This document shows positions 53,304 to 63,329 of a DNA stretch of 64,000 nt, piece by piece. The notes below the pieces were generated by a model. That model saw only the letters and a list, made by a program, of their open reading frames with translations. It did not search any database and was not told the DNA's origin. The translations under genes were made by a program, and so were the position numbers. This DNA comes from Novosphingobium barchaimii LL02 (GTDB lineage: Bacteria; Pseudomonadota; Alphaproteobacteria; Sphingomonadales; Sphingomonadaceae), in NCBI RefSeq assembly GCF_001046635.1, contig NZ_KQ130452.1, forward strand, positions 546,668 to 610,667, in the 5' to 3' direction. The number at the start of each line of letters is the position of its first letter. The stretch's first letter is position 1.

Positions 53304-54650
53304 GAATGGCGGGTTGTGTGCGTCAAGTTCTGCAAATTGGCGGTCATGGTGCTGGTCATGCGGCTTTGCGTAGTTCGGTTTTCTTCTGCTCGCGCAGTTC
53401 GTCCATATTGAGGTAGCGGTTGGCTTCGAGCCAGTTTTCGTGGGTTTCGACGGCGAGTGCGCGGACCAGGCGCAGGCAGCTGGGGGCGTTGGGGAATATC
53501 CGCACGACATAGGTTCGCCGCCGGATTTCCTCATTGAAGCGTTCGAGCATGTTGGTGCTTTTCATGTGCTTGTGATGCCTGCGTGGCAGCCGGTAGAAGG
53601 AGAAGGTCTCCTCGATCGTCTCCTCGGCCCAGTCGGTGAGCCTGGGATATTTGGCGCTCCATCGGGCGAGCCACTGGGCGAGATCGGCGCGGGCCTCGGC
53701 GAGGTTGCGCCGGTCGTAGAGCCAGCGCAGTTCCTGCAGGCAGTCGTCGTCGGCCTTCCTTGGCAAGTGATCGAGCGCGTTCCTCAGGAAGTGCACGTAG
53801 CAGCGCTGGTATGCGGCGCCGGTCAGCACCTCGCGGATCGCCGCGCGCAGGCCGGCATGATCGTCGGCGACGACGAACTCGGTGCCATGCAGGCCCCGGT
53901 CACGCAGGCGCAGCAGGAAGTCCTTCCATGACGTGGCGCTCTCGCGATTGGCCATCTCCACGGCCAGTATCTGCCGCCTGCCGTCCCAGTCGATGCCGAT
54001 CGCGATCAGCACCGCCTGGCTTCCAACCACGCCGCCTTCGCGCACTTTCTCGTAGCGGGCATCAAGGATCAGATAAGGGAACGGCTCGTCGAGGCGGCGC
54101 TGGGCAAAGGCCGCCAGGCTGCCATCGAGCTTCTTGTTGATCGCCGAGATCGTCGAGGCCGAGAAGGCATGGCCGCACAGCTCTTCGGTGATCGCCTTGA
54201 CCTTGCGCGTCGAAACGCCCTGGACATACATCTCGGCCAGCGTCGCCACCAGCGCCTGCTCCGACCGCTGGTAGCGCTCGAACAGCTCGGTCGAGAAGCG
54301 CCCGGCACGGTCCTGCGGCACCCGCAGCTCCAGCTTGCCGACCCGCGTCACCAGCGTGCGCGGGTAATGCCCCGAACGGTAGCCGAGCCGCGCATCGCTG
54401 CGCTCGCTCTTGCCCGCGCCCAGCGCCTCGTCCATCTCGGCTTCCAGCATCGCCTGCATCACGCTGCGCACAATCTCGCGAAGCGCATCCGGCTCCTGCG
54501 CCAGCAACTCTTTGACAGCGGATACAGCAGGCTTAATCTCGGTCCTGGTCATGGCGGGTCTCCTCGGTGACGTTGAACATCACCAGCCTGCCATGACCGC
54601 CTCGCTCCTCAAGCGATTTTGCAGAACTTCACGCACACTACCGAATGGCG
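53304..54650 (-). mobile_element. IS256-family insertion sequence with 8-bp target duplication
   Basis: The element is 53312-54642 (1331 bp). Its ends are imperfect inverted repeats of 27 bp (24 matches), left beginning GGTTGTGTGCGTCAAG and right GGTAGTGTGCGTGAAG. Both are flanked by the duplicated GAATGGCG (53304-53311 and 54643-54650). A second subterminal inverted block (53339-53360 and 54578-54601, with GCGGTCATGG) is also shared. The transposase is intact, so the element is probably still active. Removing it joins the TonB-like gene's 5' region to the sequence at 54651. Confidence 0.92.
53356..54552 (-). CDS. IS256 family transposase
   Basis: 398 residues, complete and with no frameshift. 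DDE catalytic residues: Asp in LDARYEKVREGG, Asp in VADDHAGLRAAIREVL, and Glu in MLERFNEEIRRRTYVV. The N-terminal part holds the DNA-binding region (ARLGYRSGHYPRTLVTRVGK). A GAGGAG ribosome-binding site lies eight bases before the ATG at 54552. Codon use is similar to the surroundings, as these elements are common in sphingomonads. Confidence 0.95.
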   Translation of the reverse strand: MTRTEIKPAVSAVKELLAQEPDALREIVRSVMQAMLEAEMDEALGAGKSERSDARLGYRSGHYPRTLVTRVGKLELRVPQDRAGRFSTELFERYQRSEQALVATLAEMYVQGVSTRKVKAITEELCGHAFSASTISAINKKLDGSLAAFAQRRLDEPFPYLILDARYEKVREGGVVGSQAVLIAIGIDWDGRRQILAVEMANRESATSWKDFLLRLRDRGLHGTEFVVADDHAGLRAAIREVLTGAAYQRCYVHFLRNALDHLPRKADDDCLQELRWLYDRRNLAEARADLAQWLARWSAKYPRLTDWAEETIEETFSFYRLPRRHHKHMKSTNMLERFNEEIRRRTYVVRIFPNAPSCLRLVRALAVETHENWLEANRYLNMDELREQKKTELRKAA

Positions 54651-54989: not shown

Positions 54990-57644
54990 TCAGTTGCGCA
55001 AACGCTCAATACCCTGGGCCAAGGCAACATAGAGCTTGCCCATATCCGAGGATAGTAAGGTGACGCCCAGCGCATTGCCATCGCGGGTGGAGAGGACTTG
55101 CCTGAGGATCGCTTCAAAGTCGTGAATGTAACGGCTGACGTTGGCGCGGAATGCCTCGTCGCGTTCGAAGACCTGCTGGATCGCCTTGGCCTCGCCCGCA
55201 TCCAGCAGGCTGACTGCGCGGCGGGTGAAGATGCCGCGGTCGCCGCGCAGATAGGCTGCCCAAGCGGTGTCTGCGATGTCACTGGAAAGCACCGAGGCGA
55301 TGTCGATCGCGTTTGAATTGAGCGATTCGGTGATGACCGCGACGCGGCGCGAAAAGTCATTGTCGACCTGTTCCTCGGCGCGGCGGCGCGCTTCGGTGAT
55401 ACGGCCTTCGAGGTTGCCGACCAGTTCGTCGACCTTGGCGACTTGCTCGCGCAGCTGCCCGGTCGCTTCGCGGGTAACGCCGGCAGAATGGGCGACGGCC
55501 TGTTCCAACTGGCCGGAAATCTCGGCTACCTTGGTACGCATGGCCTTGTCGATGGCCGACGCGCTTTCAGTAGCCAAGGTCTGCGCGACGTGGGCGATGC
55601 GGTTGGTGCTGTCGCCTTCGATTGCGGCGACCGATTCGATCAGGCTGCTATCGAGTGCAGCTATGGCCTCACTGAGCACACCCCCGGCCTTGTCGGCTGC
55701 GGTCTGGGTGGCCTGGTCGATTTCGGTAACTGTGGTGCGCAGTTCAGTGAGCAGTACGGCATGGTCAGCGCCATGTGAGGCGATATCTGCCTGGGCCTGC
55801 GCGAGGCCGGTCATCAGTTTGTCCAGGTTGCGGCCCGACGCGTCGATCCCGGTTGCAACGCTTTCACCGCCTTGAGCTGAAAGATGAAGCTGCGCGATCA
55901 GGGCGGCAACGCCTTCCTGCAACCGTGCGATACGGTCTTCGGATAAGGCAAGGGCTTCGGGCAGGGCGGTGTGTGTCTGCCTGGCGCTCGACTGGATCAG
56001 CTCGAGAAGGCGCACACTGTCGCTCGTCAGCTTCTCTACGTCGCCGTCGGTGGCGGTAAGAGTGGCGCGCGCAGCGGTCAGACGCTGGGTCAGCGTGCCA
56101 AGGCTGGCTGTCAGGCGGCTTTCGGCTTCGCCTGTATGGTGGACGATGGCTTCAAGCCGGGCTTCGAACTCCGAAAGCTCACCGGTAACGGCCGAAGCGC
56201 GTTCGGCCAGTGTAGCGGCTTGGATGCGGTGGCGTTCGAGGCGCTCGGCGATAGTGCCGTCAAGTTCGCCCAGCATGTGGTCGATGCGGGCGACGGCATG
56301 GCGTTCCTGCTCGATTTGCCGGGATTGACGGTCTTCGGCCTCCATAGACAGGCGCTCAGCCCTCAGTCCGATCGATTCGTCTACCTGCCGCGCCTCTGCA
56401 GCGATTGCAGCGACACGGCCGGCCAAGGCGTCAATGGCAGTCTGCTGGGCAGCGGAAATGGCCTGGGTGGTTGCCGCCTGTTGCTGGGACAGCCCGGTCA
56501 GCGCCGCGCGAAGCGCTTCGCCGGCACGGTCTTCGGCCTCTCGCAGCGCGCGGCTGACGACATCGCTTTCGTCGCGCAGCGCGACCAAGCGCGCTCGCAG
56601 TGAGGTCAGGCTCTCCGCCTCGTGGCGGTCTAACTGATTGCCGGTCTCGTCGATTTCGTCGGCCAACGCCTTGGCACGGGTACGGATTGCGGTAAGCGCC
56701 TCCACCTCATGGCCGTCGAGCCGGGTGCGGAAGTCCTCGCTGCGCTGGGCAAGTTCCGCGAAACGGGCGGAAGCCACGACGTCGATCTGCTCGCACTGGC
56801 GGGTAAATCCGTCCAAGGTTTCACCCACCTGTTCGCGCAGCATCGCAACCTGCCGGGTACTGGCAGAGCCGAACTCGTTGAGGCGGTTGAAGCCTGAAAC
56901 CATGTCTTCAAGCTGGGCATGCGCGGTACGACCGGCATTGGCGATATTGTTGGTGACGTCCTTGGCGGAGCTGGCGATGACCGGCAACTGCCCGCGCAGC
57001 TTTTCCATGTTCTCGAGCGCGGCGTTGCTGACGGTGCTGATCGAATCGACGCGCAGGCCGTTTTCGCGCACCAGTTCCTGCAATCGCTCGGCGTTGTGAG
57101 AGAGCCGCTCGGCGGCGATGCGACCTAGCGATTCAAGGTCTCGCGATTGTGATGCGATGAATTCGCGCGCAAGGCTGAGTTCGCGATTGACCGTGGTCAG
57201 GCGTCGTTCGAGCAGCGCGGATTCGCTCGACAGCGTCCTGGCAATCTCGCCGAAGCGGCGGCCTTCTCGGCTGCTGTGGCGCATGACCAGAAGCCAGACG
57301 AGGCCGACCAGCAGGACCGGCGCGCACCATTGGGTTACGAGCGCTGGAACCTGGGCGAGTGGCAATCCGGCGCTGAATGCAGGTAGCAGCGCGGCGAAAA
57401 ACAGCACGGTCCAGGCAATAACCACCGCGCCTGCCACAGCGGGCATGAGGGGTACGCGCGGTGCGGTAGGGGGCGGAACATCGCCATCTTCCTCGGCCGC
57501 GACCCAGGCGTCATCCCAGTTTTCCTGGGGTAGCGCGCCGGATGCGGTGTCGACAGGCCTGTCGGTATCGGCTTGCGAATTCTCGCCTCCGGAATTCTTG
57601 CCGCTGCCTGCACCTAGTGCGACGATCCTGTTTTCCCCAACCAT
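54990..57644 (-). CDS. Large coiled-coil membrane protein, TipN-like architecture
   Basis: 884 residues. An acidic disordered N-terminus (1-65) is followed by two membrane helices (about 67-89 and 104-121) and then more than 600 residues of heptad-rich helix with many Ala, Glu, Arg and Leu. The last 110 residues are a distinct, less repetitive block (SSDIADTAWAAYLRGDRGIF, EAFRANVSRYIHDFEAILRQ, LGVTLLSSDMGKLYVALAQG). Size and layout match the Caulobacter birth-pole marker TipN (about 880 residues, two helices, long coiled coil), and I infer a polarity or cell-division scaffold. The homology itself is not proven here. It is divergent from the Hpt-like gene, 69 bp away. Confidence 0.7.
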   Translation of the reverse strand: MVGENRIVALGAGSGKNSGGENSQADTDRPVDTASGALPQENWDDAWVAAEEDGDVPPPTAPRVPLMPAVAGAVVIAWTVLFFAALLPAFSAGLPLAQVPALVTQWCAPVLLVGLVWLLVMRHSSREGRRFGEIARTLSSESALLERRLTTVNRELSLAREFIASQSRDLESLGRIAAERLSHNAERLQELVRENGLRVDSISTVSNAALENMEKLRGQLPVIASSAKDVTNNIANAGRTAHAQLEDMVSGFNRLNEFGSASTRQVAMLREQVGETLDGFTRQCEQIDVVASARFAELAQRSEDFRTRLDGHEVEALTAIRTRAKALADEIDETGNQLDRHEAESLTSLRARLVALRDESDVVSRALREAEDRAGEALRAALTGLSQQQAATTQAISAAQQTAIDALAGRVAAIAAEARQVDESIGLRAERLSMEAEDRQSRQIEQERHAVARIDHMLGELDGTIAERLERHRIQAATLAERASAVTGELSEFEARLEAIVHHTGEAESRLTASLGTLTQRLTAARATLTATDGDVEKLTSDSVRLLELIQSSARQTHTALPEALALSEDRIARLQEGVAALIAQLHLSAQGGESVATGIDASGRNLDKLMTGLAQAQADIASHGADHAVLLTELRTTVTEIDQATQTAADKAGGVLSEAIAALDSSLIESVAAIEGDSTNRIAHVAQTLATESASAIDKAMRTKVAEISGQLEQAVAHSAGVTREATGQLREQVAKVDELVGNLEGRITEARRRAEEQVDNDFSRRVAVITESLNSNAIDIASVLSSDIADTAWAAYLRGDRGIFTRRAVSLLDAGEAKAIQQVFERDEAFRANVSRYIHDFEAILRQVLSTRDGNALGVTLLSSDMGKLYVALAQGIERLRN

Positions 57645-57713
57645 CGGCGCAGGATATCACGTGGCGAGCGGCAATAAACCCCACCTTAAGACCTTGCCCA
57701 CTATTCTGGGGAA

Positions 57714-58016
57714 ATGGCGTATGAAGCAGGTGCCCTCGAAGCGACTCTGGCCGCTGCAGCAGGCGGCGATCCCGTGCTTATGGCGGAACTTCGCGGCGCT
57801 TTCGTCGAAAGCGTGATGCGGCAGGTTGATCTGCTTGAACGCTCGCGCTGTGACGGCAACTGGGTAGTCGCGGCGATGCGCCTGAAGGGGCTCGCGGCGA
57901 GCTTCCATTCGTCTCGCCTTCTGGCGCTGGCCGACAACGCGCTAGACGCTGCCCCCGGTGAGCCGACCGTTATCCGCCGGCTGAAGGCTTATCTCTCAGA
58001 GTTTTCCGTCGGCTGA
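57714..58016 (+). CDS. Hpt-like protein lacking the phosphorylatable histidine
   Basis: 100 residues, all helical. The central MRLKGLAASFHSSRLLALAD aligns with the Hpt signature (HRLKGxxxxxGxxxLxxLA), but Met55 stands where the phospho-accepting His should be. A His at position 65 is ten residues later, on the wrong part of the helix. It could be an inhibitor or docking domain for a kinase, or a degenerate Hpt. First gene of a four-gene forward cluster ending in a histidine kinase. Confidence 0.65.
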   Translation: MAYEAGALEATLAAAAGGDPVLMAELRGAFVESVMRQVDLLERSRCDGNWVVAAMRLKGLAASFHSSRLLALADNALDAAPGEPTVIRRLKAYLSEFSVG

Positions 58017-58105
58017 TTGTCCGGTTCCGCTTGGCACCCGCCTCCCGCTTGCCTACATCGGGATGTGGGTGCTGGAGTTCTTACTTGCGAATAGCATTGC
58101 TTGCC

Positions 58106-59287
58106 ATGACGGAGCCTGCCGGAGCAGGGCAGCCGTACCCGCGCGCGTTCCTGCGTGTTGCGGGGGCGAGCGTTGCGCAGCACCAACTGGGCATGGCGCT
58201 GGCGCTCGAATGCCAGCGCGTGATCTGTATGGCGCGTGGGACCTCACCCGAATTGATCGCGCTTCAGCATGATGCCGAGCATGCCGGCCTGCAGTTCACG
58301 ATCGCTACCGGACCGGGGCAGCTTGCCGGGCTGGTGACGGCTAGCGACGAACTCATCGTGATTTCAGAAGGACTTTTCGCCGATTCCGCGCAGGCAGTTG
58401 CTTTGCTGGATGGCCGTGCGCCGGTCGTGCTGGTGCAGCCGGTCGAGGGCGCGCTCGTCGCCGGCTTCGAGAGGATCGATATCAACCGCGCCAGCGCCGG
58501 GCTGATGCGGCTGCCGGGCCAGATGCTTGAGCGGCTGCACGAATTGCCGGCCGATTGTGATGTGATATCGGCTCTCACTCGTATCGCGCTGCAAACCGGG
58601 GTCGCCATGCGCGAGGTTTCGGCCTCGGCGCGCGCGGGTTCGGGCTGGCGCATGATTCGCAGCGAGGCTGAAGCCTATGCGCTGGAGGACGAATGGTTGC
58701 GTTCCCGCTTTGGCGAAGGAAGCTGCAGTTCTCCGGGCCGGGCGGCGGCGCGCTTTGGTGTGCTCAGTTTCGGCACGTCGCTGCTTCATGCGGGCAACGC
58801 CAGTAATGCGGTTTCCGCGGCGGTTCTCGTCTGTGTTGCCATCGCGGCAGGACTGGGATGGTTCGGCCTGATTTGGGGCGGGTTCGTCTTCGCCGCGATC
58901 GGTTGGCTGCTGGTTGAAGCGAGCCGGCTGCTGCGTGCTGCCGAAAGGCACGCCTTGGGGCAGCCTTCCCCTGCGATTCCGCGCGCGGATGCGATGGTTT
59001 GGCTGGTTGACGCCATTTTTGCGGCGCTGATCCTGCTCGCCACACCCCGTTTTCCGGGAGAACCCGCGATCGCCTGGCTATGCGTGCCGGCAATCCTGAT
59101 GCTGCTGCTGGTACTGTCGCCGCGTATTACCGGCGGCCCGTTCACCGGATGGATCGCAGACCGGGCCTTGTTCGGTCTGATTCTGGCCGTGGCTTCGGGT
59201 TTTGGACAAGTGCTGCTGGCCGTGCGGCTGCTTTGTGTAGGCTTGGTGCTTGCGGCGTTGCTGCTGCCGCCCCGGCGGCACGGCTAA
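58106..59287 (+). CDS. Membrane protein with possible nucleotidyltransferase-like N-terminus
   Basis: 393 residues from ATG 58106. Residues 15-195 are soluble, starting RAFLRVAGASVAQHQLGMAL with alternating strands and helices (QRVICMARG, ELIVISEGL, APVVLVQPVEG) reminiscent of a sugar-phosphate nucleotidyltransferase or MobA-like fold, though the nucleotide-binding loop is not intact. From about 240 there are six membrane helices. This order recalls proteins where a nucleotidyltransferase is fused to a CDP-alcohol phosphatidyltransferase, but the DG(x)2AR motif of the latter is absent. Function unknown. Second gene of the cluster after the Hpt-like gene (89 bp). Confidence 0.65.
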   Translation: MTEPAGAGQPYPRAFLRVAGASVAQHQLGMALALECQRVICMARGTSPELIALQHDAEHAGLQFTIATGPGQLAGLVTASDELIVISEGLFADSAQAVALLDGRAPVVLVQPVEGALVAGFERIDINRASAGLMRLPGQMLERLHELPADCDVISALTRIALQTGVAMREVSASARAGSGWRMIRSEAEAYALEDEWLRSRFGEGSCSSPGRAAARFGVLSFGTSLLHAGNASNAVSAAVLVCVAIAAGLGWFGLIWGGFVFAAIGWLLVEASRLLRAAERHALGQPSPAIPRADAMVWLVDAIFAALILLATPRFPGEPAIAWLCVPAILMLLLVLSPRITGGPFTGWIADRALFGLILAVASGFGQVLLAVRLLCVGLVLAALLLPPRRHG

Positions 59288-59322
59288 CTTCGATTTAACC
59301 AAATGCCGGTTATACGGGTCAG

Positions 59323-60279
59323 ATGATCGATCAGGCCGCTCCTCCGGCAACCAGCGAAAGCGTAGAGGCCGCACTGCGAGCCGAACTGGCGCGGGCCGAC
59401 GCCATGGCCGGAACGGCAGCCCCGATCCTGCGGCACCTTGTCGCTGCGCGCGACATTCCTGTCTTCAGTGAAGAGATGCTGGCGCGAATCCGCGCCATGC
59501 TGGCCAGTCTCGCGGGGGAACTGCTCGACGCACTAATCGGAGCTGATGGCCGCCGTGCGCATTCACCTGCCGAGGTCGAAGTGCTGGGCGGCGCGCTACT
59601 CGATAATCCGGCGCTGCTTGCGCACCTGCATGGATTAGCGCAGGAATGGCAGCTTACCGAACGCCTGCAGGCACGTCTCGCGCTTGATCCGGTGGCATCG
59701 CCGATGCTGCGAAGCTTGATCCACGGACCTGACGGGGCGCCCAAGGAACTGGCCATGGCCTTCCTCGCCGCCCAGGCCCGCTGGTGCCAGGCACAGCGGC
59801 GGATGGAGTTGCCGCTGGGCGAACTGCCCGCCGACCTGCTGAATGTTGCACTTTACACCCTGCGCACGCTGGCGGGCATCGAACCGGCGCTGGCCGAGCG
59901 CGCGGGCGTCGTCGAGGGCAAGGTTCGCCAGACGTATGACGAAAACGCGACCCGTATCGGCCTCGCCGAAAGGCTTGTAAAAAGCCTTGGCGACGGCGTT
60001 CATGCGGCGCTGAGGGTCGATAATGCCGGCGCGGCGCTGTTCCTGACCGCGCTCGCGCTGGGCTCGCGGCAGCAGCGTGACGCTGCCGTGCATTCCACCC
60101 ACGACACCCAGATGGCGCGACTTGCGCTTGGCCTTCGCGCCTCTGGCCTGGGAGCGGTCGCGGTGGAGGAGCAGTTCCTTGCGCTCCACCCCGAAGTGAC
60201 CTTGCCTGCCGGCTTCGAGCGGCTAGACGCGGAGCGAGCGGCAATGCTCCTTTCGTCGCCTGTGGGATACCGCTCTTGA
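59323..60279 (+). CDS. All-alpha protein of unknown function, possibly DUF2336-like
   Basis: 318 residues, almost entirely helical, rich in Ala and Leu, no signal or membrane segment. HEAT-like helical pairs run from about 20 to 300 (ILRHLVAARDIPVFSEEML, LGGALLDNPALLAHLHGLAQ). The pattern is close to DUF2336 proteins of alphaproteobacteria, which is a guess. Its stop overlaps the ATG of the histidine kinase gene by one base (TGATG), so the two proteins are made together. Confidence 0.6.
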   Translation: MIDQAAPPATSESVEAALRAELARADAMAGTAAPILRHLVAARDIPVFSEEMLARIRAMLASLAGELLDALIGADGRRAHSPAEVEVLGGALLDNPALLAHLHGLAQEWQLTERLQARLALDPVASPMLRSLIHGPDGAPKELAMAFLAAQARWCQAQRRMELPLGELPADLLNVALYTLRTLAGIEPALAERAGVVEGKVRQTYDENATRIGLAERLVKSLGDGVHAALRVDNAGAALFLTALALGSRQQRDAAVHSTHDTQMARLALGLRASGLGAVAVEEQFLALHPEVTLPAGFERLDAERAAMLLSSPVGYRS

Positions 60280-61655
60280 TGTTCGATGACGGCACCATCC
60301 TGGCCCTGGCTACAAGCGATGCTGAGGACCGGTTGCTGAGTGCGGACGAGCCACTATCCGGCCTGCAGGTGCGCTGCGGCGGAGAGTTGCCCGGCATGAT
60401 CGCAGTGCCCGAATTGCTCGAACTGGTGCGCAAGGCCCGTCTGTCGCGCTTCCGCCTTGCCCGGGCGATCAATGCGCAGGATGGTAGCGATGCGATCAGC
60501 GCATGGGTCGAATGCGAACCTGCGCAGGACAGTCAGGGCTGCACGATCCGCGTGCGCACCTGGCAGACGGCGCAGATCCTACCCGAGGACGGCGAGATTG
60601 CCCAGCAGCGCCGGGCTGTGACGGACCGTCATATCGCCGAACTGTCCGCCTACCTCGACGCAGGCCAGCGTCTCCTCGCGGTGACGGCCGATTCCAGGGA
60701 ACTGGGCGAAGTTGCAGCAGCCATGGCAAGCGGCACCGGACAGGTCTGGACCGATTTCCTCGCACCGGAGAACGTCACCCACCAGCAGCCGCTCCACTGG
60801 CGCCTGCTTGACGGCACGCGCGTGATCGTGCCGGGCTCGCAGCGTTCCTGGCGTGTTTCACTGATCCCGCACATGACCCCCGGCTTCGAGCCCGCTGGCT
60901 TCGAACTGCTGCTGCTGTCCGATGAGCCCGCGCCAGAGCCGCCCATCGCAGTGGAGCCGAGCCCGAAAGCGCCACGCCGCAGTCTCGTCGGGCAGGATCT
61001 GGCGCCTGTGCTCAAGCAGCCGATTTCGCGTATCATAGCAAATGCCGAAACGATCCGCACGCGCCTCGCCGGTCCTTTGCCCGATGCCTATGCAGAATAT
61101 GCGGGCGAAATCGCCAGTGCGGGCACACTTCTGCTGGGTCTGCTGGAAGACATGGCCGATCTCGAAGTGGTCGAATCGGACAGTTTCACGACCAGCCCCG
61201 ATCCTATCGACTTGTCCGAAGTGGCGCGTCAGGCCGCCGGCATCCTGGGCGTACGGGCGCGTGAGAAGAATATATTCCTCGACGTTCCACCGCCGGAATG
61301 GACACTGCCCGCCCGAGCGGAGTTTCGCCGCGTCTTGCAGGTGCTGCTGAACCTGATCGGCAATGCCATCCGCTATTCCCCCGAAAATTCGCGCATAGTG
61401 ATCCAGCTGGAGCATGCGGGCGAATGCGCTCGCATCGCCGTAGCCGACCAGGGTCCGGGCCTGAGCGACGAGGATCAGCCGCGTGTTTTCGACAAGTTCG
61501 AGCGACTTGGTCGCAGCGGCGACGGCGGGTCTGGCCTTGGGCTTTACATCTCGCGAAGCTTGGCAAGGGCGATGGGCGGCGATCTGACCGTGCAAAGCAT
61601 GCCCGGATACGGCGCTCGCTTCATCCTTGAAGTTCCGGCCGACCCGGACGCCTGA
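60279..61655 (+). CDS. Soluble histidine kinase-like protein with Pro in place of the H-box His
   Basis: 458 residues, no membrane segment. Residues 1-230 are an unassigned, probably PAS-like, sensor region. Residues 235-300 form a dimerisation helix pair in which the H-box reads LAPVLKQPISRIIANAE; by alignment with SHELRTPLxxI the His is replaced by Pro243. The ATP-binding domain is complete: N-box NLIGNAIRYSP, G1 VADQGPGLS, F-box KFERLGRSG and G2 GSGLGLYIS. It can probably bind ATP but not autophosphorylate in the classical way, as for Caulobacter DivL, where the His is a Tyr. The gene overlaps the all-alpha gene by one base. Confidence 0.75.
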   Translation: MFDDGTILALATSDAEDRLLSADEPLSGLQVRCGGELPGMIAVPELLELVRKARLSRFRLARAINAQDGSDAISAWVECEPAQDSQGCTIRVRTWQTAQILPEDGEIAQQRRAVTDRHIAELSAYLDAGQRLLAVTADSRELGEVAAAMASGTGQVWTDFLAPENVTHQQPLHWRLLDGTRVIVPGSQRSWRVSLIPHMTPGFEPAGFELLLLSDEPAPEPPIAVEPSPKAPRRSLVGQDLAPVLKQPISRIIANAETIRTRLAGPLPDAYAEYAGEIASAGTLLLGLLEDMADLEVVESDSFTTSPDPIDLSEVARQAAGILGVRAREKNIFLDVPPPEWTLPARAEFRRVLQVLLNLIGNAIRYSPENSRIVIQLEHAGECARIAVADQGPGLSDEDQPRVFDKFERLGRSGDGGSGLGLYISRSLARAMGGDLTVQSMPGYGARFILEVPADPDA

Positions 61656-62045: not shown

Positions 62046-63329
62046 TTAACGCTGGCCGATGGCCAGGTAGTCGCGCTGCGTCGGACCCGTGTAGAGCTGA
62101 CGCGGACGACCAATCTTCTGGCCTGGATCCGAGATCATTTCGTTCCACTGCGCGACCCAGCCCACGGTGCGGGCCAGAGCAAAGAGAACGGTGAACATCG
62201 TGGTCGGGAAGCCGATTGCCGACAGGATGATGCCTGAATAGAAGTCGACGTTCGGGAACAGCTTTTTCTCGACGAAATACGGGTCGCTCAGTGCCAGTTC
62301 TTCAAGGCGCAGCGCGGTTTCGAAGAGCGGATCGGTAACCTTGAGCGCGTCGAACACCTCGCGCAGAGTCGACTGCATGACCGTCGCGCGTGGATCGTAG
62401 TTCTTGTAGACGCGGTGACCGAAGCCCATCAGACGGAACGGATCGTTCTTGTCCTTGGCGCGCTCGATGTAGTGGGGGATGCGATCGGGAGTGCCGATTT
62501 CCTTGAGCATGTTGAGCGCGGCTTCATTGGCGCCGCCATGCGCGGGGCCCCACAGGCAGGCGATGCCGGCGGCGATGCACGCGAACGGGTTCGCGCCCGA
62601 CGAACCGGCAAGGCGCACGGTTGAGGTCGACGCGTTCTGCTCGTGGTCGGCGTGAAGAATGAAGATGCGGTCCATCGCCTTTTCGATGGCGGGGATCACT
62701 TCATACTCTTCCGCAGGCACACCGAAGGTCATGCGCAGGAAGTTGCCGGTGTAGCTCAGCGAGTTGTCCGGATAGACGAACGGCTGGCCGACCGAATACT
62801 TGTAGGCCATCGCGGCGATCGTCGGCATCTTCGCGATAAGGCGATGCGAGCTGATCTTGCGATGCTCGGGGTCCGCGATATCGGTCGAATCGTGATAGAA
62901 CGCCGAAAGCGCGCCTACGACGCCGCACATGATCGCCATCGGGTGCGCATCACGGCGGAAACCGCGATAGAACGTCGCCAGCTGCTCGTGCAGCATGGTG
63001 TGGCGCGTGATGGTGTTTTCGAATGTGGTGAGTTCGCTTGCGCTCGGCAGTTCGCCGTTGAGCAGAAGGTAGCTCGTTTCCATGAACGAGGAGTGCTCGG
63101 CCAGCTGACCGATCGGGTAGCCGCGGTGCAGCAGCACGCCTTCGTCCCCGTCGATGTAGGTCAGCGCCGACTCGCAGCTTGCGGTCGAAGTGAAGCCTGG
63201 ATCGAACGTGAACTTGCCGGTCTGGGCATAGAGCTTGCGGATGTCGACGACATCCGGGCCAACGCTGCCCTTAAGGATCGGATATTCGAAGTCCGCGCCA
63301 CCAGCGCTCAGTTTAGCCTGATCACCCAC
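62046..63329 (-). CDS. gltA: Citrate synthase
   Basis: 427 residues, hexameric type II form. Active-site His in [11 protein letters not shown] and [14 protein letters not shown], Asp in [10 protein letters not shown], and the [15 protein letters not shown] block. First step of the TCA cycle. The start is a GTG at 63329 with AAGGAG nine bases upstream. It follows gltX by 21 bp, so the two are probably co-transcribed. Confidence 0.97.

Follow-up and report, generated by a model that had tools for sequence, protein, structure and literature searches.

A conserved gene set of acceptor-less phosphorelay parts beside a TipN/GPR-like scaffold gene in Novosphingobium barchaimii and its relatives

The locus and its conservation

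The DNA considered here is a stretch of 64,000 nucleotides from Novosphingobium barchaimii LL02 (contig NZ_KQ130452.1, positions 546,668 to 610,667; hereafter the window). An earlier reading made from the letters alone (the sequence-only reading) had described positions 54990 to 61655 as a polarity-linked module in which a TipN-like coiled-coil protein gene stands 69 bp from four divergent genes. All five genes are present at those positions: the TipN-like gene (below, the scaffold gene) on the minus strand, the 69 bp gap, and four plus-strand genes ending at 61655. The features are as follows, with protein lengths in amino acids (aa).

54990..57644, minus strand: TipN/GPR-like coiled-coil membrane protein, 884 aa, with hydrophobic N-terminal stretches (by eye), a long middle and a very conserved C-terminal domain of 150 aa
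57645..57713: divergent spacer, 69 bp
57675..57689, plus strand: CtrA-like box TAAA-N7-TTAA within the spacer, one mismatch to TTAA-N7-TTAA
57714..58016, plus strand: pseudo-Hpt, 100 aa, with Met at the phospho-acceptor His site and Lys (H+3) and Gly (H+4) retained
about 58106..59287, plus strand: membrane protein of IPCT-DIPPS fold (nucleotidyltransferase-like and CDP-alcohol phosphotransferase-like parts), CDP-alcohol motif lost
59323..60279, plus strand: all-alpha protein, 318 aa, probably a divergent DUF2336 member
60276 or 60279 (start) to 61655, plus strand: pseudo-histidine kinase, 458-459 aa, with Pro for the H-box His, Gln at H+4 and intact ATP-binding boxes

Family, order and class are read below as Sphingomonadaceae, Sphingomonadales and Alphaproteobacteria. 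The named loci are the best 80 of at least 526 confirmed relatives ranked by the kinase, and 54 of their 80 titles carry the name Novosphingobium; a further sample comprises 32 loci from the genus-level group to which the window belongs. Conservation of the gene order had been proposed as a check on the module, and the order is indeed kept. All five genes occur in order in 65 of the 80 named loci, and 11 of the 15 loci without the full set are shorter than the stretch requested. The arrangement of scaffold gene against Hpt, membrane, all-alpha and kinase genes was seen in 30 of the 32 genus-level loci (one of the 30, L041, is cut within the scaffold gene); the two others are L032, which has an insertion, and L058, which reaches a contig end. 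Many divergent members of the family show the identical order. Values of dN/dS, the ratio of non-synonymous to synonymous change, lay between 0.03 and 0.27 for all five genes in 19 comparisons with four near relatives, several pairs having dS above 1 and hence saturated silent sites. These values indicate that the genes are under purifying selection rather than in decay.

The closest relative by kinase among the best 80 is Novosphingobium sp. 18050, at 95% identity. In this strain (L227:4219-5340 and L032) an element with an integrase-like gene lies inside the spacer separating scaffold gene and operon, and the scaffold gene was not found within the 17 kb fetched.

The proteins and the spacer

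A Pfam search with the window's protein resembling a histidine phosphotransferase (Hpt) gave no match; 16 of 30 family members matched Pfam Hpt (best 3e-4), with stray matches to TetR C-terminal domains in up to 5, and a further member scored 22.6 bits against the Pfam cut-off of 24.6. A profile of scaffold-linked Hpts recovered window-type family members (best 6.5e-9), profile-profile comparison gave E 0.0013 for the relation, and the protein belongs, remotely, to the Hpt sequence family. The canonical motif AHxLKG reads AMRLKG in the window. In 72 named loci the His site holds Met (46), Leu (21), Thr (4) or Gln (1) and never His, while H+3 is Lys in 67 and H+4 is Gly in all 72; His was present in one of 59 Hpts of a wider set and in five of 69 family-wide. 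The sequence-only reading, which had noted an Hpt-like protein without its His and had asked for the motif to be aligned across homologues, is borne out. The Lys at H+3 matters for receiver binding. The Gly is likewise described as important for this (PMC6341664). The sole PDB sequence match of one scaffold-linked Hpt, that of L189, was ShpA (2ooc; E 1.7e-10), and the window protein looks derived from ShpA and other single-domain Hpts, from which it differs in the replacement of the phospho-acceptor His.

The kinase-like protein matches HATPase_c in Pfam (E 1.2e-26) and HisKA at 6.2e-4, under its cut-off. Against the canonical H-box HELRTP or HELRTPL the window has PVLKQP (over a longer stretch, APVLRQPIARII), so that the His is Pro in an otherwise preserved fold, as had been claimed. 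Pro occupies this site in all 80 named loci, where the acidic residue that follows the His is also gone (V, A or I in 80 of 80) and Gln stands at H+4 (80 of 80, and 52 of 70 family kinases). The search for His in homologous kinases found none among 64 in the wider set and one among 70 across the family, in which the position is held by P (53), A (5), R (3), Q (2), and N, K, S, T, D and H (one each), with one gap and no Tyr. The residues of the N, G1 and G2 ATP boxes are invariant in the 80 named loci and kept in 62-64 of the 64. Retention of docking residues and ATP site with loss of the acceptor is expected for a reused fold, not for a dying gene. In a small genome of 2.1 Mb (L310:3398-4822) the kinase has an H-box His, followed by Ser instead of an acidic residue.

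The likeness to DivL drawn in the sequence-only reading holds for a His-less histidine-kinase core with a basic H+3 residue in a polarity-related setting, and fails in detail. DivL is described as having Tyr at the H-box site, binding ATP weakly and lacking phosphatase activity, and is proposed to sense a phosphorylated receiver (PMC4211667). The window kinase, in contrast, has Pro in place of Tyr, invariant ATP-box residues, no transmembrane stretch (by eye) and a pseudo-Hpt as neighbour.

The membrane protein has the two-part IPCT-DIPPS / CDP-alcohol phosphotransferase fold. CDP-alcohol phosphotransferases carry the motif D-x2-D-G-x2-A-R, which is absent from the window protein; a pattern search picked it up in 6 of 86 family members, including L318, which may be a different protein. 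The replacement of the motif separates the window protein from the IPCT-DIPPS of Archaeoglobus fulgidus (4mnd) and from AF2299 (4o6m, 4o6n), and by its residues it is a dead IPCT-DIPPS-type enzyme; the nucleotidyltransferase-like part suggested earlier is there, and the identification of the whole is corrected accordingly. In L311, L307, L325, L326 and L321 the CDP-alcohol phosphotransferase part is apparently intact, and an inositol-phosphate synthase gene follows in L311 (by Pfam) and in L307 and L325 (by eye), an adjacency that points to inositol lipids.

For the all-alpha protein, a single-sequence search found relatives in 34 of 37 genus-level-group genomes and none in 24 genomes from the order's other families; a family profile found them in 94 of 199 family genomes and 5 of 289 class genomes, four of the latter being family members. 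PF10098 (DUF2336) matched neither the window protein nor 32 near members. Homologues at the same place in L307, L311, L310, L165, L170 and L161 exceed its cut-off, L171 falls under it, and L147 and L149 do not match. The window family's profile recovers L161, L165, L170, L307 and L310, and direct profile comparison with L307 is weak (E 0.014). The all-alpha protein is probably a divergent DUF2336 member. The name DUF2336 was not found in the open-access literature searched, and the locus would give this family a setting. Judged by defining residues, none of the operon's products is a phosphotransferase, histidine kinase, DivL or IPCT-DIPPS enzyme; those are the folds from which they are built.

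A profile of the scaffold's C-terminal domain matched in all 199 sampled family genomes and in 102 of 289 class genomes, within open frames of 377-2752 aa. TipN has 882 aa and Agrobacterium GPR 2115 aa (PMC13170164); the window scaffold, at 884 aa and with a hydrophobic N-terminus by eye, resembles the former, and its C-terminal domain recurs in the class member L129 in a protein of 2115 aa, read from the first start codon, the same length as GPR. The proposed link to TipN is in this way strengthened, and the scaffold may belong to the TipN/GPR family, the assignment of the C-terminal domain resting on protein length. TipN marks the new pole in Caulobacter (PMC10127582) and GPR organises polar growth in Agrobacterium (PMC8262873); the passages on them mention no linkage to dead signalling genes. 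In the open-access literature, subscription papers being outside the search, we found no study of this scaffold in sphingomonads or of this locus, and nothing joining TipN with a histidine phosphotransferase.

The spacer measures 64-78 bp in 64 of the 65 named loci with both flanking genes, and contains one block at a fixed place, TAAA-N7-TTAA, which lies in the same alignment column in 62 of 65 loci (the window and 64 named). The CtrA consensus is TTAA-N7-TTAA. At most one mismatch to it was found in 59 of 65 spacers, as against 1.3% of letter shuffles, a comparison that is not an independent test because the 65 rows are related. Predicted control of the spacer by CtrA is supported by these counts, short of proof.

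Origin of the gene set and its interpretation

The upstream neighbourhood of the scaffold gene was examined in 54 loci outside the family, two rows being left out. An Hpt-type gene stood there in 27: in 16 of 17 loci of the order's other families (the seventeenth stops at a contig end) and in 11 of 37 loci elsewhere in the class, once within a kinase protein. The phospho-acceptor His is retained in every one of the 18 stand-alone canonical Hpts of these outgroups. Eight of the 16 order-level loci have a canonical Hpt and the remaining 8 a second Hpt only; a receiver together with the second Hpt occurs in every one of the 16 order-level loci that have upstream sequence and in the family members L223, L313 and L317. 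In L209, for instance, Pfam identifies these neighbours as Response_reg (1e-15) and, just under the cut-off, Hpt (5.8e-5). Within the family, the second Hpt matched strongly in 3 of 59 genomes and weakly in a fourth, and the receiver was found in 2 of 8 genomes tested but not in the nearest relative. On a tree of the scaffold domain with 85 rows, its outgroup rows limited to those with a canonical Hpt, the state of the Hpt His requires 3 changes. Taken together, the outgroup Hpts, the receiver, the second Hpt and the tree point to relay genes with the His as the most likely earlier state of the locus.

We consider it on balance probable that the locus specifies a phosphorelay-derived, CtrA-controlled complex that docks and senses at the cell pole without transferring phosphate. 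Genes for an Hpt, a receiver and a second Hpt would once have stood beside the TipN/GPR-like scaffold gene, and the present locus would be their retained and reused remnant. Most of the family would have lost the receiver and the second Hpt, the remaining Hpt would have lost its phospho-acceptor His, and three genes would have joined: an IPCT-DIPPS-type membrane enzyme whose active site was lost, a DUF2336-like protein and a His-less kinase with its ATP site. Together with the scaffold, the products would make up a CtrA-controlled complex at the pole, in which the Hpt and DHp surfaces of pseudo-Hpt and pseudo-kinase would bind receivers, ATP binding would act as a conformational switch, and docking and sensing would replace phosphate transfer. 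Binding of receivers is proposed by analogy with DivL, whose His-less core can sense a phosphorylated receiver. A more tentative extension is that the scaffold recruits retired enzymes which, carrying no phosphate of their own, read the phosphorylation of free receivers at the pole, acceptors having been lost stepwise at this one locus within the order, from receiver Asp to Hpt His to kinase His. The earlier idea of a polarity system finds partial support, dead phosphorelay parts being conserved beside a TipN-like scaffold gene, with the membrane protein, all-alpha protein and DivL details corrected.

Several observations weigh against this proposal. No Hpt-type gene lies upstream of the scaffold in 26 of the 37 class-level loci. 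The His-bearing Hpts of L159, L311 and L312 fall among His-less rows of the scaffold-domain tree, where regain of the His and several losses are indistinguishable. Of 19 order-level and basal loci (L208-L223, L226, L313 and L317), 15 encode near the scaffold a receiver with Asn at the acceptor Asp site, Asp being confined to four of the five f8 loci; by its sequence the protein is a pseudo-receiver in most of the order. Acceptor loss probably began, then, before the Hpt lost its His, and even the ancestral set of genes may have been non-phosphorylating in part. In 26 of 96 family loci, some of them cut, no kinase was found, and so it is not needed everywhere. As to CtrA, divergent loci give a weaker picture, with at most one mismatch in 12 of 37, although the right half of the box is kept in 18 of the 22 with two mismatches. 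The strict pattern, at 9 sites in three genomes against 6 for a reversed control, is not clearly enriched; the 9 include two in the module spacer, one just past the scaffold gene of G028, and, in favour of CtrA control, one each before genes that we take to encode a CtrA-like regulator (receiver and Trans_reg_C in Pfam) and a flagellin-like protein. Finally, gene neighbourhood alone does not prove a single complex.

The main rival makes the His-less kinase a dedicated phosphatase that dephosphorylates, through its H+4 Gln, a receiver presented by the pseudo-Hpt; the locus would then switch off a polar receiver. In known kinases phosphatase activity is served by Thr, Asn or Gln near H+4, and the constancy of this Gln is the best argument for such a role. 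A membrane protein of Sphingomonas, PhyT, is moreover known to bind and hold a receiver (PMC5898713). We nevertheless regard the phosphatase as unlikely, given that the acidic residue after the His has been lost along with it and that the pseudo-kinase DivL is without phosphatase activity (PMC4211667). The Pak-SdrG-PhyT-PhyR relay of Sphingomonas melonis shares with the window module two-component parts, a related genus and, in PhyT, the holding of a receiver (PMC5898713); it differs in that PhyT hands phosphate on through a conserved His, and the window module has no such His left.

Invariance of the ATP-box residues would also suit a kinase that acts elsewhere, phosphorylating another protein or residue in trans so that phosphate is still passed by an unusual route. 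The partner Hpt lacks its His as well, however, and the H-box position holds no fixed phosphorylatable residue across the 70 family kinases, which makes this very unlikely. It is quite unlikely, too, that scaffold gene and operon merely share a promoter region and serve separate processes, the dead enzymes belonging to envelope or inositol-lipid control. Such plain adjacency would accommodate the relatives with an intact CDP-alcohol phosphotransferase, among them L311 with its inositol-phosphate synthase and Wzi genes alongside, and the family loci that keep the scaffold gene where kinase and DUF2336-like genes were not found; it is opposed by the recurrence of the Hpt-scaffold neighbourhood in several families of the class, above all at order level, and by the conserved length and box of the spacer.

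Single pseudo-kinases are known in bacterial polarity; the window has a conserved operon with several dead signalling and lipid-type enzymes beside a polarity-type scaffold gene. If the docking and sensing complex exists as proposed, the locus would be a rare record of a phosphorelay turning into a non-phosphorylating control complex, with acceptor-bearing forms persisting in relatives, and the role of the scaffold in sphingomonads becomes testable.

Neighbouring genes

In one class-level genome (L142:6210-8867) an 886-aa kinase with an Hpt-like part directly precedes the scaffold gene on the same strand. A small protein of 84-132 aa is encoded beside the scaffold gene in the outgroups L143, L192, L132, L209 and L211, with the motif GGKLPLFD in all of these except L209.

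Across the family, citrate synthase (window 62046-63329) often lies convergent to the module, and it stands within the same 13 kb in 31 of the 32 genus-level loci (the exception is L046). The citrate synthase of Caulobacter was recovered as a cell-cycle regulator from a screen in a tipN cpdR mutant (PMC7083601). Downstream of the scaffold gene, window positions 53356-54552 hold a transposase-like gene of 398 aa, presumably of the IS256 kind, and L031 carries a 36% relative of it on the same side.

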